Source of the DNA: Halocalculus aciditolerans
GTDB taxonomy: Archaea > Halobacteriota > Halobacteria > Halobacteriales > Halobacteriaceae
Direction of reading: 5' to 3'
Assembly (NCBI RefSeq): GCF_014647475.1
Contig: NZ_BMPG01000005.1
Coordinates: 1-64,000 of the forward strand
DNA length: 64,000 nucleotides
Below, one piece after another: positions 14,886-52,923 of the stretch; the first letter of the stretch is position 1; each line of letters opens with the position of its first letter. The notes below the pieces were generated by a model. The model saw nothing but the letters and a program-made list of their open reading frames with translations. It did no database searches and had not been told where the DNA came from. Both the position numbers and the translations under genes were made by a program.

Positions 14886-15458
14886 ATGACCGACTACGAC
14901 ATCCGGGCGCTCGACCTCACCGACGACGAGTACCTCGTCACTCAATCCCTCGTCAGGAACAAGTACCGAGCCGAAGACACCCGGGGGAACGTCGTCCTCC
15001 GCGGCAAACAGAAGATGTTCAAGCTCAAAGAGGAGTTCCCCTTCGAGACCGGCGACGGCCGGCCCGCCTTCACGGTCAAAGCCGGCGGCATCCTCGACGT
15101 CGCCGGCAACTACGCCCTCATCGACGCTCAGACCGACGAACCCGTCCTCGTTCTCGACCAGAACTGGACCTTCCTCACCCACAAGTGGAAACTCCGCGAC
15201 CCCGACACTGAAGCCCTCATCGCCACCATCGAATCCGAATCCAAACTCGTCGACGCCCTCCGCGCCATCAGCGACCTCTTCTCCGTCATCCCCCACAAGT
15301 ACGAAATCCGAGACGCCGACGGCGACCACGTCGGCCGCGTCGCCGGCCAGTTCTCCCTCGCAGACAAGTATACCGTCACTATCGACGACGCCAGCGACGT
15401 CCCCAAAGAAGCCGTCCTCGCCGCCGCCATGGTCATCGACGCCATCGAAGGGAACTAG
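14886..15458 (+). CDS. LURP-one-related (tubby-like) protein
   Basis: 190 residues of the LURP-one-related/scramblase-like beta-barrel fold. The repeated beta-strand pattern is visible: YLVTQSLVRNKYRAEDTRG, VVLRGKQKMFKLKEEF, FTVKAGGILDVAGNYALID and HKYEIRDADGDHVGRVAGQ. A final hydrophobic helix (EAVLAAAMVIDAIE) is typical. The cellular role in archaea is not known. It is divergent from uvrA, with a CTTTATCCC TATA-like element about 30 bp before the ATG. Confidence 0.85.
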   Translation: MTDYDIRALDLTDDEYLVTQSLVRNKYRAEDTRGNVVLRGKQKMFKLKEEFPFETGDGRPAFTVKAGGILDVAGNYALIDAQTDEPVLVLDQNWTFLTHKWKLRDPDTEALIATIESESKLVDALRAISDLFSVIPHKYEIRDADGDHVGRVAGQFSLADKYTVTIDDASDVPKEAVLAAAMVIDAIEGN

Positions 15459-15591
15459 ACACCCACTTTTTGCGCTGCGCTCGGCGCGCTTCGCGCGCTG
15501 TCGCTCGGCAAAAACTCGGGAAAAAGCGCTCCTCCTTCAGTCCGCTCGCTACACTCGCGCCCTTCGGTCGTCGGCCCGAGCGCTCCTAGCG
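15459..15591. other. Palindrome-rich gene-free stretch
   Basis: No gene is seen. Just after the LURP-one stop codon lies an inverted repeat with CTTTTTGC near 15469 and GCAAAAAC near 15510, separated by GC-rich palindromic sequence. It resembles the TTTTTCG...CGAAAAA palindromes found after the two SDR genes (17781-17817 and 18740-18780) and may be a 3' end signal or a copy of the same kind of element. Confidence 0.5.
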
Positions 15592-15738
15592 TCGCCCTCG
15601 GCGAATCGGCGGCCGTCACGCGAGCGAACACAGTGAGCGAGTGTGACTCAGCGAGAGCTTGCTCTCGCGCGATACCGGTTCCTCACGGACCGCTCGGTCG
15701 CCGAACGCTTGCACCATTGGTTGTTCAGCACAGCCACT
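15592..15738. repeat. 147-bp direct repeat, left copy
   Basis: This segment is repeated at 16838-16984 with two mismatches in 147 bp (both in the CACCATTGG/CACCATGGA segment). The two copies flank the TraB-like gene, with a repeat-to-repeat distance of 1246 bp. The repeat contains short palindromes (GCGAGCGAACACAGTGAGCG and CGAGAGCTTGCTCTCG). No coding function was recognised, although one frame (ALARYRFLTDRSVAERLHH) is open through it. Confidence 0.93.
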
Positions 15739-15812
15739 TAGTGGAACGAGATACTCTCTCTGCCTTCGTTTACACCAGCACATACTCGTAAAAGGGCGGC
15801 TATCACTGAAGC

Positions 15813-15825
15813 GTAAATTTAATTA
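15813..15825 (+). promoter_or_regulatory. TATA box of the TraB-like gene
   Basis: GTAAATTTAATTA is centred about 28 bp upstream of the ATG at 15847, the expected spacing for a leaderless haloarchaeal transcript. It is one of the strongest TATA elements in the window. Confidence 0.6.
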
Positions 15826-15846
15826 CAGCCACATTAAATATCCGAT

Positions 15847-16671
15847 ATGGCGAGTCTGATTCATCTGTTCGGCGCGGCCCACTCGGACCGGTATTCAAAC
15901 ATCAAAACGGAGATCGAAGAGCGAGTCACGGCAACCGATGCAGAGGCGGTTTGTATCGAAGCGCCAGAGGAACGGATCCGGGTCAGATACTGGTTACTCG
16001 CATTTCTCCGACTCCCACTAGTTGTTACGGGATTCGCTATGGTTGGATCTCCTCAACTTGCACTGCTTGCTCTTCGCGCTCGGAGCGTATTTCCGGGAGA
16101 AGTCCGCGCTGCACGAGAAGTTCATGCCGAGCACGGGATTTCACTTCACAAGGTTGATCCCCATTTCCAGCGTTACTTCTCAGCAGGCGGTCTCTGGTTC
16201 AGTATCGCCAACTGGGCTGTTCTGATCGGTCTCGCTGTCGTCTTCTCACCGATCCCGGTAGCGATTATCTGCGTCTTCGGAAACGTCGGGTTTTGGTGTC
16301 TTCGGTGGCTCGGCCAAGCATCAGAGCGTCTCGCCGTGATTAGTGCCCTCCCTGCTTGTGTCCTCTTTTATTATGCACTCTTCCAGATCACTTCGATCCC
16401 GCTCGTTCTCGTCGCGTTCAGTCTCGGAGTCGCTGGCCTTGTTATCGGTGCCAAGCTGACGGAAGAGGAACGCACCGATGAAATGGTTTCGCGGACACAG
16501 ACTGCCATCGCCGAGCATGAGTACGAGAACGTACTCTATGTCTCGGGGAAAGGGCGCATCTCAACCCTCCGAGATCGTCTCACTGACTTGGATGATGTTG
16601 AGCTTGGATCGGTGTGGCTCAAAGATCGTTCGGAGAGCGGCGAACTCAAATATCCCGCTCCTGATGAATGA
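15847..16671 (+). CDS. TraB/PrgY-like membrane protein in a repeat-flanked insert
   Basis: 274 residues. The N-terminus (LIHLFGAAHSDRYSN and AEAVCIEAPEER) matches the GTaH...VcvEl..eR pattern of TraB/PrgY proteins, and VRAAREVHAEHGISLHKVD fits the next block. The middle (about 105-200) has several hydrophobic segments likely to span the membrane. The C-terminal domain (ERTDEMVSRTQTAIAEHE then NVLYVSGKGRISTLRDRL) fits the TraB R-x-x-x-M ... G-x-G-H block in diverged form. TraB relatives act against signalling peptides or in protein turnover; the role here is unknown. Base composition is clearly more AT-rich than its neighbours, and it lies between 147-bp direct repeats, so it was probably acquired. 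Confidence 0.72.
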   Translation: MASLIHLFGAAHSDRYSNIKTEIEERVTATDAEAVCIEAPEERIRVRYWLLAFLRLPLVVTGFAMVGSPQLALLALRARSVFPGEVRAAREVHAEHGISLHKVDPHFQRYFSAGGLWFSIANWAVLIGLAVVFSPIPVAIICVFGNVGFWCLRWLGQASERLAVISALPACVLFYYALFQITSIPLVLVAFSLGVAGLVIGAKLTEEERTDEMVSRTQTAIAEHEYENVLYVSGKGRISTLRDRLTDLDDVELGSVWLKDRSESGELKYPAPDE

Positions 16672-16837
16672 CGGCTCGCCGTGCTATCCACAGTAGGACC
16701 CTCGCTGTGCAGGCTAGCGAAATTGGGGATGGAGTTCGTTATGTAGGCGTACACACCGACCTTTGCTGCGCTCCCTGCGGTCGCTTGCGAAAGCTCGAAC
16801 ACAAGCCGTCGTCACCCCCTTCGGGGGTTCCTCGGCC
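16672..16837. other. Gene-free stretch with terminator-like hairpin
   Basis: No gene is seen. A compact inverted repeat ACCCCC-TTC-GGGGGT at 16814-16828, just before the right repeat copy, could end the TraB-like transcript, but no T-run follows. Confidence 0.4.
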
Positions 16838-16984
16838 TCGCCCTCGGCGAATCGGCGGCCGTCACGCGAGCGAACACAGTGAGCGAGTGTGACTCAGCGA
16901 GAGCTTGCTCTCGCGCGATACCGGTTCCTCACGGACCGCTCGGTCGCCGAACGCTTGCACCATGGATTGTTCAGCACAGCCACT
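16838..16984. repeat. 147-bp direct repeat, right copy
   Basis: Near-identical (145 of 147) copy of 15592-15738 in the same orientation. It closes the insert that carries the TraB-like gene. Confidence 0.93.
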
Positions 16985-17063
16985 GTACTTACCGAGCCTC
17001 GGCAGCTGTTCGGCAACACGCCGATTACCTCCCTTACCCTATACTCCCGCCTGCTAACTCTTG

Positions 17064-17213: not shown

Positions 17214-17687
17214 CTATTCTTCCGCGACGTCCGCGACGTCGGCCTCGGCGAGTTCGGCGAGTTCGTCGGGAGCGATGGGCCAGACAGTCGTCGGCGTGCC
17301 CGCTGCCGCCCAGACTTCGTCGTAGTCGAGGAGGGTCTCGTCCATGAGGACGCGGCAATCGGTGGTGTGGCAGATCGGGGGGACGCCGCCGATGCTCCAC
17401 CCCGTGGCGTCCTTGACGAGGTCGGCGTCCGCCATCGAGACCGAGTCCGCGCCGACGGCGTCCGCGACTTTGTCCATGTCGACTCTGTTCGCGCCGCTCG
17501 TGATGCAGACGACGGCGTCGCCGTCGGCGCTGAGCACGATACTGGACGCGATCTGCGCGGTCTCACAGCCGACGGCGTCCGCGGCGTCCGCCGCCGTCTT
17601 CGTGCCCTCCGGGAACTCCGTCACCGCGGGCGTCACGCCGTATCGGTCCTCGGCCTCTGCGACGAAATCGCGGGCTCGCTCGTGCAT
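17214..17687 (-). CDS. YbaK/EbsC-type aminoacyl-tRNA deacylase
   Basis: 157 residues of the YbaK/ProX editing domain, which hydrolyses wrongly charged tRNA in trans. The core is visible: TKTAADAADAVGCETAQIASSIVL (with the conserved A/C-Q-I-K/A-S pattern) and ANRVDMDKVADAVG. TGWSIGGVPPICH is the family's T-G-x-x-x-G-G-x-P-P-x-G/H motif. The length is normal. The substrate (Cys-tRNA-Pro or similar) cannot be fixed from sequence. The start at 17685-17687 gives MHERARDFV. Confidence 0.88.
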   Translation of the reverse strand: MHERARDFVAEAEDRYGVTPAVTEFPEGTKTAADAADAVGCETAQIASSIVLSADGDAVVCITSGANRVDMDKVADAVGADSVSMADADLVKDATGWSIGGVPPICHTTDCRVLMDETLLDYDEVWAAAGTPTTVWPIAPDELAELAEADVADVAEE

Positions 17688-17734: not shown

Positions 17735-17773
17735 TCAGGCGTTCGACTGGCCGCCGTCGACGACGAGGGCTTG
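17735..17773 (-). repeat. Echo of the 3' end of SDR gene 1
   Basis: Read on the minus strand this segment encodes QALVVDGGQSNA-stop, nearly the same as the end of the adjacent SDR gene (ESLVVDGGQSNT-stop at 17840). At the DNA level about 30 positions match with very few changes, at an offset of 105 bp. It has no gene body of its own. Between echo and gene lies an inverted repeat, GTTTTTCGG (17781-17789) with CCGAAAAAC (17809-17817). Confidence 0.85.
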
Positions 17774-17839
17774 CGCGCACGTTTTTCGGGCTCGCGCCGT
17801 CGCGCTCGCCGAAAAACCCGCACTACAAAGCGTGTCTCG

Positions 17840-18604
17840 TTACGTGTTCGATTGGCCGCCGTCGACGACGAGGGATTCGCCGTTGACGTAGCCGGCGAGG
17901 TCCTCCGAAGCGAGGTAGAGCGCTGCGCCGGCGACGTCATCCGGCTGGCCGAGGCGGTGCAGGGGCGTGTCCTCCGCGCTTTCCTGGGTCGCGATGGGAA
18001 CGTCCTCGTTCGTCATCGCGGTGTCGATGACGCCGGGGTGGATGGCGTTCACGCGAATCCCTTCCGGGCCGAGTTCGTCCGCGAGCGAGTACGTCAGGAG
18101 GCGCACCGCGCCCTTCGAGGTGTTGTAGACGGAGAACGTCCCGGCCCCGCGGAGCCCCGCGACGCTCGACATGTTGATGATGGAGCCGCCGCCGGTTTCG
18201 AGCATCCGCTCTGCCGCGGCCTGCGCGCCGAAGAACACGCCCTTCACGTTGATATCCATCAGCTGGTCGAACTCGGCTTCGGTCACGTCGACGAAATCCT
18301 TCTGCCGGAAGATGCCCGCGTTGTTCACCATGACGTCGACGCCGCCGAACGCGTCCGCCGCCTCGACGGCGTCCGCGAGCGCGTCGACGTCGGAGACGTC
18401 GCACTCCACGTAGGTCGCGTTCACGCCGTACTCCTCCGCGGCGAGCTCGTGCGTCGGTGTCCCGCCTTCCCGCGGCTCCGGCTGGATGTCCGCGACCACC
18501 ACGTCTGCGCCCGCCTCCGCGTACGCCTCCACGATAGCGCGCCCGTTCCCGCTCGCCCCGCCGGTCACGACTGCCGCCTTCCCGCTCAGGTCGATTTCCT
18601 TCAT
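17840..18604 (-). CDS. Short-chain dehydrogenase/reductase (SDR 1)
   Basis: 254 residues of a classical SDR: cofactor motif VTGGASGNGRA at about 13-23, NNAG at about 93-96, catalytic Ser in INMSSVAG, and the YxxxK pair in VYNTSKGAV, then the PGVIDTAM segment. An acidic residue after the second strand (VVADIQPEP) suggests NAD(H) preference. The substrate is unknown; FabG-like or sugar/steroid dehydrogenases are possible. It runs in the same direction as SDR 2, which lies 194 bp upstream. Its last about 35 bp are duplicated downstream. Confidence 0.9.
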   Translation of the reverse strand: MKEIDLSGKAAVVTGGASGNGRAIVEAYAEAGADVVVADIQPEPREGGTPTHELAAEEYGVNATYVECDVSDVDALADAVEAADAFGGVDVMVNNAGIFRQKDFVDVTEAEFDQLMDINVKGVFFGAQAAAERMLETGGGSIINMSSVAGLRGAGTFSVYNTSKGAVRLLTYSLADELGPEGIRVNAIHPGVIDTAMTNEDVPIATQESAEDTPLHRLGQPDDVAGAALYLASEDLAGYVNGESLVVDGGQSNT

Positions 18605-50827: not shown

Positions 50828-51300
50828 CGTCTCCGAACGAAGTGAGTAGCGCAGCCCATCGGAGTCGAAGCAGGGAGCAAATCGGAGAGTCGCGACCGTG
50901 GTTCGAATCCTCCCGGGCATATCCCGAAGACACTCATCCTGTAGCGGTACGGAAACCCACGGGGAGACCCGCTTATCCCTCACGCACTCCGGAATCACTC
51001 TCGGTGTCTCGGGCGATTGCTGGCCCAGGTCGTCCGGCGAGTACGAACGCTGCGGTGCGTCCCCGAGCGTCGACGTCTCGCCGTCGAGCAGCGCCCGGTC
51101 GTGTCACCGTCCGGTAGTCGGGGAGTAACTGGGGCTGGCGGCCTTTTTGCGACTCACTCCGCGGCGGTTGATAAGCCCGCCCGGTACTCAGAGCGTTCGG
51201 AGTGTCATACTTCATCGTTAGTTAGCGGCGCTCTCAGGCGCTTGCTCGTGAGTCAGTGTGTCACGGAAGATGGGTTTTCGCTCCCGAATCCCCCATCGCA

Positions 51301-51310
51301 TTTATTAACC
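51301..51310 (+). promoter_or_regulatory. TATA-like element upstream of the pilin genes
   Basis: TTTATTAACC stands out in the sequence. If it drives the pilin operon, the mRNA has a leader of about 130 nt that includes a 7-bp hairpin at 51390-51411, unusual for a haloarchaeon where leaderless genes are common. Confidence 0.45.
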
Positions 51311-51461
51311 TGTCCGGACTACGGACTACCTAAGAACACGTTACCGTAGGATACCGGAGAATGGTCGAGGGGCACCGAAACGCCCTCACCCGTCTGTAAC
51401 GATTCAGACGGCATAAAGACTCCGCGTGGACTGCCCATGCGTGTTCCGAACCACATTAACA

Positions 51462-51884
51462 ATGTCCAAACGCACACTCTCACTCGACTTCGATGTCGAC
51501 GAACGCGGTGTCTCCCCAGTCATTGGGGTCATCCTGATGGTCGCTATCACCGTGATTCTCGCGGCCGTCATCGGCGCGTTCGTCCTCAACCTCGGCAGCA
51601 ACCTCGGAAGTACTGGTCCCAACGCACAACTCTCTGCGAGTTGTGCTCCTTCTTCGGATGGAGTCACTATCTCTCACAAGGGCGGTGACCCTATCAAAGT
51701 CGATGAGGTCACGCTTCAGTCGCCCAGCAGTAATGCGGACTTCAGCCCATCGAGCCCGTTCTCGGTTGGTGACAAAACGACGATAGTCTCTAGCGGTGAT
51801 GTTAGTTCGGGAGACACGGTTACTGTAACGCTCGTCCACAACCCTTCGGAATCCATCCTCATCGACACCGAGGTCAACTGCTAA
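51462..51884 (+). CDS. Type IV pilin-like protein 1
   Basis: 140 residues. The N-terminus DERGVSPVIGVILMVAITVI followed by LAAVIGAFVL is the haloarchaeal type IV pilin motif (DUF1628/pilin_N). Class III signal cleavage by the prepilin peptidase is expected just before GVSP or after the ERG. The C-terminal domain is Ser-rich and beta-structured with one Cys near its middle and a C-terminal Cys. It supports adhesion or biofilm. The adjacent gene is a second pilin; the first 45 residues are nearly identical between them. Confidence 0.92.
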   Translation: MSKRTLSLDFDVDERGVSPVIGVILMVAITVILAAVIGAFVLNLGSNLGSTGPNAQLSASCAPSSDGVTISHKGGDPIKVDEVTLQSPSSNADFSPSSPFSVGDKTTIVSSGDVSSGDTVTVTLVHNPSESILIDTEVNC

Positions 51885-51885
51885 G

Positions 51886-52389
51886 ATGAAACTCAATTTC
51901 GACCTTAACACCGACGAACGTGGTGTCTCCCCGGTTATCGGGGTCATCCTGATGGTCGCTATCACCGTGATTCTCGCGGCCGTCATCGGCGCGTTCGTCC
52001 TCAACCTCGGTAGCAACCTTGGACAGACTGGCCCAAGCACGCAACTTTCCGTCTCCGACGCTTCTGACAATTTCGATAGCAGTAACACGCTTGCCGAAAT
52101 TCAGCACAAGGGCGGTGACCAACTCAAAGCCAGCGACCTCAAAGTCGTTGTCACGCCCCCCGGAGAAAGTGCCGTAAATATCGATCCTGTCTCAGCAGGC
52201 GCATCCAGTAATCTGAAAGTTGTACAGACGGCTGGCGGATCAACCACTGCTAGCTCACTCTCAGTGGGCGGAAGCTGGTACATCGTCGCAACTGGCGGGA
52301 GCTACCCGACATCCGGCGAGTACAATATCCAAGTCGTCCACAAGCCGTCGCAGTCCATCCTCATCGACACGGACGTCACGATTAACTAA
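51886..52389 (+). CDS. Type IV pilin-like protein 2
   Basis: 167 residues starting 1 bp after the first pilin stop, so the two are one operon. The hydrophobic N-terminal motif and the next residues (LNLGSNLG) match pilin 1 almost exactly, also at DNA level, while the C-terminal domains differ apart from the final SILIDTDV block. The pattern suggests duplication with conserved assembly domain and diverged surface domain. Confidence 0.92.
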   Translation: MKLNFDLNTDERGVSPVIGVILMVAITVILAAVIGAFVLNLGSNLGQTGPSTQLSVSDASDNFDSSNTLAEIQHKGGDQLKASDLKVVVTPPGESAVNIDPVSAGASSNLKVVQTAGGSTTASSLSVGGSWYIVATGGSYPTSGEYNIQVVHKPSQSILIDTDVTIN

Positions 52390-52572
52390 ACGACAGTCCC
52401 GTCTCGGCACTCCATTTTTCTGACGCACTACGCTCGCCAGCGAGATCCACTAGTCCCTCGTACGTGGCGTAGTACTACGCAGCCCTCGTCGATTCGTTCG
52501 AATAGGCTGCACTACTCGTCTAAGTCGCCGTCGCGCGAGGGTGCCGAATTTCTCGTTTCCGCGTCGCTGGTG

Positions 52573-52923
52573 CTATGCTCGGCCTTCGTATTGGGCGTCG
52601 GCAGAGGTGTTGTTGCGGTTGAAGGAGGTGACGGTGGCGCGGATGGCGTCGCCTTCGTCGACGGCGTCGGGGACGTCGTGGACGAAGAGGACGAAGCCTT
52701 GGACTTTGCCGACGGCGACGCGTTCGCCGGAGTGGTGGTCGGTGAACTCGGTGACGCCGAGGTCGTAGGTCTGGCCGAGGTCGACGGGGGCGTCGCGTTT
52801 CTGGGCGGCGTCGTGGGCGTTCTTGGAGGCGCGTCTGTCGGCGGTGCGGCGTCGCCAGAGGACGGCGGCGAGGAGGATGACGAGGAGGGTGGCGATGCCG
52901 ATGCCGACGAGCTGGTAGTCCAT
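52573..52923 (-). CDS. Membrane-anchored TRAM-domain protein
   Basis: 116 residues. An N-terminal membrane helix (LVGIGIATLLVILLAAVLW) with a basic stop (RRR) is followed by a TRAM domain: VDLGQTYDLGVTEFTDHHSGERVAVGKVQGFVLFVHDVPDAVDEGDAIRATVTSFNRNNTSADAQ. TRAM domains bind RNA and are abundant in haloarchaea. The membrane anchor is the unusual part. It lies 45 bp after a CDF transporter gene on the same strand. Confidence 0.87.
   Translation of the reverse strand: MDYQLVGIGIATLLVILLAAVLWRRRTADRRASKNAHDAAQKRDAPVDLGQTYDLGVTEFTDHHSGERVAVGKVQGFVLFVHDVPDAVDEGDAIRATVTSFNRNNTSADAQYEGRA

Follow-up and report, generated by a model that had tools for sequence, protein, structure and literature searches.

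How a single gene of low GC content came to lie between two nearly identical direct repeats is the question raised by this locus of Halocalculus aciditolerans. In the window (the whole 64,000-nucleotide stretch that was analyzed), positions 15589-15738 and 16835-16984 are direct repeats of 150 nt that are 98% identical and whose starts lie 1246 bp apart. Other repeat families nearby reach 35-49 nt at 60-77% identity, which places this pair far beyond chance. The GC content of the segment between the elements described below (15710-16761) is 53.8%, compared to 68.1% for the window, and the repeats enclose a single plausible open reading frame of 274 aa (15847-16671). The initial annotation had reported direct repeats around a lower-GC gene with nothing mobile inside, and both observations stand: no transposase or integrase was found between the repeats, where Pfam and NCBIfam gave no match at E<=1.

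Both repeats proved to be the right halves of larger elements, E1 (~15462-15738) and E2 (~16738-16984). On the forward strand, the locus begins with a LURP-one/scramblase-like gene (14886-15458), assigned from sub-threshold Scramblase/LOR matches and from its orthologues. The left half of E1 (15462-15588), which is of native type, follows 6 nt past the LURP stop codon with a T5 run and a long hairpin. The right half of E1 (15589-15738), the first direct repeat, adds an extra hairpin pair, in which a GGTCC/GGACC hairpin is nested in a GGCGRCC/GGTCGCC stem, and ends in the tail GCACCATTGGTTGTTCAGCACAGCCACT. The upstream region of the gene (15739-15846) carries an AT-rich, promoter-like stretch at ~15817-15846 and is followed by the accessory gene itself (15847-16671), predicted to encode a membrane protein. 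E2, also on the forward strand, consists of a left extension, CGTTATGTAGGCGTACAC, with a left half of Halarchaeum type (together 16738-16834; 89% identical over 129 bp to a copy in genome G009) and of the second direct repeat (16835-16984). The final 52 bp of E2, to position 16987, are identical to a G009 copy whose neighborhood is unrelated to that of the window. On the right, a YbaK-type aminoacyl-tRNA editing gene lies on the reverse strand (17214-17687).

Both repeats are ordinary representatives of an unusual element family, here called E, with a length of ~150-280 bp and a conserved multi-helix architecture. Searched with the repeat alone, the H. aciditolerans genome matched at 13 places, namely the two copies of the window and 11 others, most of them partial. 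The initial annotation had proposed a search of other haloarchaea, and there the repeat found matches in 20 of 26 genomes of the same family, and a full-length relative in 24 of the 26. Across a Halobacteriales sample, at least 94 of 245 genomes matched the full-length query, a lower bound obtained with three candidates scored per genome. A profile search of 693 kb of the H. aciditolerans genome recovered 14 elements, and extrapolation from this sample gives an estimate of ~70 copies per genome. Twenty aligned copies share a common structure of 32 pairs in which 95.3% of cells are paired; 75 cells had changed on both sides, compared to 21.6 in shuffles. In controls with the partners shifted by 1-3 columns, the pairing signal was lost. 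An invariant TTTT/AAAA helix marks the left of E, and copies vary by optional hairpin modules. At four loci (L005, L008, L024 and L043), E carries nested hairpin pairs (hairpin, short TCA/GTTCAG spacer, hairpin), as if modules had been inserted with the main helices left unbroken.

The position of E relative to genes points to its probable role. Of 36 copies surveyed, about half begin 2-9 nt past the stop codon of a gene in the same orientation. This share is a minimum, since the simple gene caller used overlooks short genes, the LURP gene among them. Orthologous genes of different genera keep E copies behind them. T runs are an intergenic termination signal known in Haloferax (PMC7237163), and from the position behind stop codons, the structure, and the presence of this signal, we propose that E probably acts as a 3'-end or terminator element. 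Like the archaeal terminators formed by T stretches and hairpins in Haloferax, E has T runs on both strands and hairpins right behind stop codons, whereas its size is far larger and its covarying helices go far beyond what termination needs (PMC7237163). By the criteria tested (multi-copy, intergenic and hairpin-forming), E is a REP-like intergenic element. It shares with REP and BIME repeats a dispersed, intergenic, hairpin-forming nature and a place 3' of genes, and differs from them in its length of ~150-280 bp, its multi-helix structure with the invariant TTTT/AAAA helix, and the lack of a Y1 (RAYT-type) transposase in this genome. A search of Rfam with E returned chance-level matches only, and no earlier description was found in the open literature searched, which did not include subscription journals. 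E is abundant across Halobacteriales, covarying, and tied to stop codons, with no Rfam entry; should it act as a 3'-end RNA element, a model archaeal group would have an extensive regulatory layer that is still unannotated.

The enclosed gene is a foreign insert. Close homologues of its 274-aa product (70-79% identity) were found in Halarchaeum only, each in a different neighborhood, and the Halarchaeum acidiphilum copy of the gene carries a frameshift near its end. A strong TATA box had been claimed for this gene; an AT-rich, TATA-like stretch, TTTAATTA, does lie ~25 nt 5' of the ATG, and the 44 bp around it are recognizably akin to the H. acidiphilum upstream region, but the TATA-like core is not strictly kept there. 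The description of the protein as TraB-like is weakly supported. It keeps the first GxxH motif and the following Glu found in the superfamily of TraB/PrgY/GumN (PF01963) and EreA/Tiki, and the best PDB match of its AlphaFold model (pLDDT 82.9) is the erythromycin esterase EreC, a weak match (E 0.22, probability 0.60, TM 0.37). In contrast to that superfamily, the second GxxH is replaced by GKGR in the clade of the window protein; both motifs are present in relatives that carry an RDD domain (PF06271) in addition. Pfam, NCBIfam and PDB sequence searches with the 274-aa protein yielded no assignment to the TraB family; it has no PF01963 match above the gathering score, and one distant relative reached E 0.044. 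The protein is a possible distant member of the TraB/EreA/Tiki-type hydrolase-like group, and its function is putative.

The flanking genes reveal what the site looks like in the absence of the insert. LURP-one-like and YbaK genes are neighbors, beside uvrA, in three relatives (G001, G006 and G007). The gap between them is a few bp in G001 and G006, which supplies the empty site that the initial annotation had suggested looking for, while G007, of the same genus as G001, has one E between the two genes in the same direction. The junction therefore occurs in three states: empty and with one element, both in relatives outside the window's genus, and, in the window, as element, gene and element. 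Conserved synteny of the gene had been named as grounds against an insertion; instead, relatives have the flanking genes side by side or almost so, and the context of the gene differs with each homologue.

The two elements are composed of halves with different affinities. The left half of E1 is closest to elements of its own genome (L111, L139, L188 and L136; 69-72%), and that of E2 to two Halarchaeum-group elements in G009 (86% and 84%), a genome counted as Halarchaeum by a genus grouping shared with two named Halarchaeum genomes. The right halves are 98% alike, and their next best matches reach 72-76%. Different left-half affinities are the pattern expected if a native resident E recombined with an E of Halarchaeum type, and we consider it somewhat probable that the gene entered in this way, through homologous recombination by the host. 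A native E would already have sat behind the LURP gene, and the incoming DNA, circular or linear, would have carried the accessory gene together with its Halarchaeum-type 3' E. Host recombination enzymes might then have joined the incoming element with the resident one, which would yield an E1 with a native left half, an E2 with a Halarchaeum left half, and a 150-bp right half common to both. In H. acidiphilum, an E with the left end GTTAGGTAGG lies directly upstream of the gene, matching the donor that this model predicts, and homology to H. acidiphilum sets in at 15740, 1-2 bp past the end of the first repeat. A circular intermediate with a single repeat had been among the initial proposals, and the anatomy fits it, given the single-element site in G007 and the E upstream of the H. 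acidiphilum gene; the circle itself is something that we infer. It had also been noted that a multi-copy family unrelated to the insert would speak against such an event: the repeat is indeed multi-copy, but it is not unrelated, as the left half of E2 is of Halarchaeum type like the homologues of the gene. The bracketing of the gene thus most likely results from recombination at E, which, if it moves single genes, offers a concrete and testable route for the turnover of accessory genes in haloarchaea.

Several observations count against the recombination model. The right halves, at 98% identity, are too alike for copies that evolved apart, so that conversion, duplication or a recent shared source must also have acted. 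Both right halves combine a native-looking extra hairpin module with a Halarchaeum-like tail. In H. acidiphilum, ~45 bp separate E from the conserved gene block, and low-GC segments do not generally lie beside E. When E pairs were picked for lying close together, they did enclose low-GC segments with a single gene in several genomes. An unbiased 693-kb sample of the H. aciditolerans genome, however, holds 11 low-GC segments, and only that of the window adjoins an E. Since the pairs had been selected by nearness, they fail as a rule, and with 1 of 11 segments beside E in the 693 kb we do not claim that E elements generally bracket low-GC islets. Two further arrangements were seen among the pairs. 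In the same genome (L136:4958-6681, contig C2 ~815-817 kb), an inverted E pair encloses a segment of 46.5% GC with a 300-aa open reading frame that has no Pfam match. Syntenic inverted pairs in two Halarchaeum-group genomes (L172:3635-4843 and L173:3688-4798) enclose the same gene of 43-44% GC, which encodes a lipoprotein-like protein of 143 aa.

The initial annotation had also raised a repeat-based cargo system and a check for other cargo between the same repeats. Such cargo exists: the cassette between direct E copies in genomes G005 and G011 (L130:4877-6502 and L170:4196-5653) consists of a Fic/Doc toxin gene (PF02661) and a small partner open reading frame. The left half of the downstream E in G005 is 96-97% identical to that of the upstream E in G011; in the other pair, the hairpin has been swapped the opposite way. 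These patterns indicate that the flanking elements traded halves around the cassette. This parallel favors the cargo proposal, against which stands the missing general link between low-GC segments and E in the H. aciditolerans genome.

Alternatively, the gene and its own 3' E2 could have arrived behind the LURP gene by whatever route, with E2 later overwriting the right half of E1 through gene conversion. The near-identity of the right halves makes this a serious rival, and we regard it as possible, if doubtful. It would account for the confinement of the 98% identity to the right half, with left halves that differ strongly, and it accords with the occurrence of E as a 3' element of single genes, kept behind orthologues in different genera. 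Conversion alone leaves unexplained why homology to the gene begins exactly 1-2 bp past the repeat, and why halves were exchanged around the Fic/Doc cassette.

A more specialized view is that E elements are exchange sites at which single-gene cassettes are swapped behind resident genes, integron-like and with no integron integrase; we consider this unlikely. The stricter form, a site-specific exchange in which a cassette of gene and 3' element is moved by a recombinase that works in trans, either on the element or on a short site at its left end, we consider quite improbable. The order of promoter, gene and repeat does have the geometry of a cassette, and many haloarchaeal Fic/Doc cassettes lie between direct repeats, several of them in arrays. 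Fic/Doc genes of this type occur in 186 of 394 Halobacteriales genomes and lie between direct repeats in 16 of the best 30 loci, mostly repeats of families other than E. At ten loci (L220-L227, L130 and L170; several families), the cassettes follow a conserved hairpin region ending in GTTAGTGTTCCGGGCGTACA, after which come 1-4 directly repeated CTACTAGTAGA..CTCGCCCGGTAGTGTTCCGGGCGTACAT copies. The GTTAGTGTTCCGGGCGTACA hairpin region resembles the 3' end of an H/ACA-type guide RNA and may serve as the attachment site of the cassette arrays. By sequence, the left end of E2 weakly resembles the short site of these arrays, which is suggestive; the resemblance is short, however, and its attI-like form was reached by 8 of 300 shuffles. 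No integrase was recognized upstream of, or beside, the ten arrays by reading of open reading frames, and most E copies are single and outside arrays. In comparison to integron cassettes, including those of archaeal integrons (PMC9668308), the E loci share a gene with a structured 3' site, hybrid sites, and Fic/Doc-type toxin cassettes, but differ in that no IntI or other integrase was found nearby and any attC core would be hypothetical. The text of the archaeal integron paper does not mention Halobacteria (PMC9668308).

That E is a non-autonomous transposon, a PATE or MITE, with the gene in a composite of two copies, is very unlikely. In its favor, Haloquadratum is rich in PATEs and MITEs (PMC3119063), the right end of the E2 subfamily is sharp in four contexts, and G001 and G007 differ by one whole element. 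Against this, the eight TnpB loci of the H. aciditolerans genome, compared with the element profile for IS605-type ends, gave no match at E<=10 in this one genome. The Y1 transposase (PF01797) is absent from the same genome, while control genomes gave matches. Neither terminal inverted repeats nor a short target duplication were seen by eye at the element ends, of which the left one lacks a sharp boundary behind stop codons. Furthermore, E is placed behind stop codons and kept behind orthologous genes. It resembles the Haloquadratum walsbyi PATEs, MITEs and small mobile repeats (PMC3119063) in being haloarchaeal, short, non-coding, palindromic and of high copy number, and departs from them in its preference for the 3' side of stop codons, the lack of visible terminal inverted repeats, and the lack of a match to TnpB loci here. 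Finally, a long target duplication created by the insertion, as initially proposed from the two direct copies that flank the insert, has practically no chance of being correct and was rejected, as the repeat is dispersed and multi-copy, being found at 13 places in its own genome and matched in most relatives, and is the inner part of two elements with different left halves.

Two other features of the window were recorded. A second low-GC segment, at 51100-52600, has no adjoining E element. The end of an SDR gene is directly repeated over 32 bp (94%) at 17741-17877, and this repeat surrounds a T-rich palindrome, GTTTTTCGGGC..GCCGAAAAACCC, which represents another hairpin insertion close to the end of a gene.
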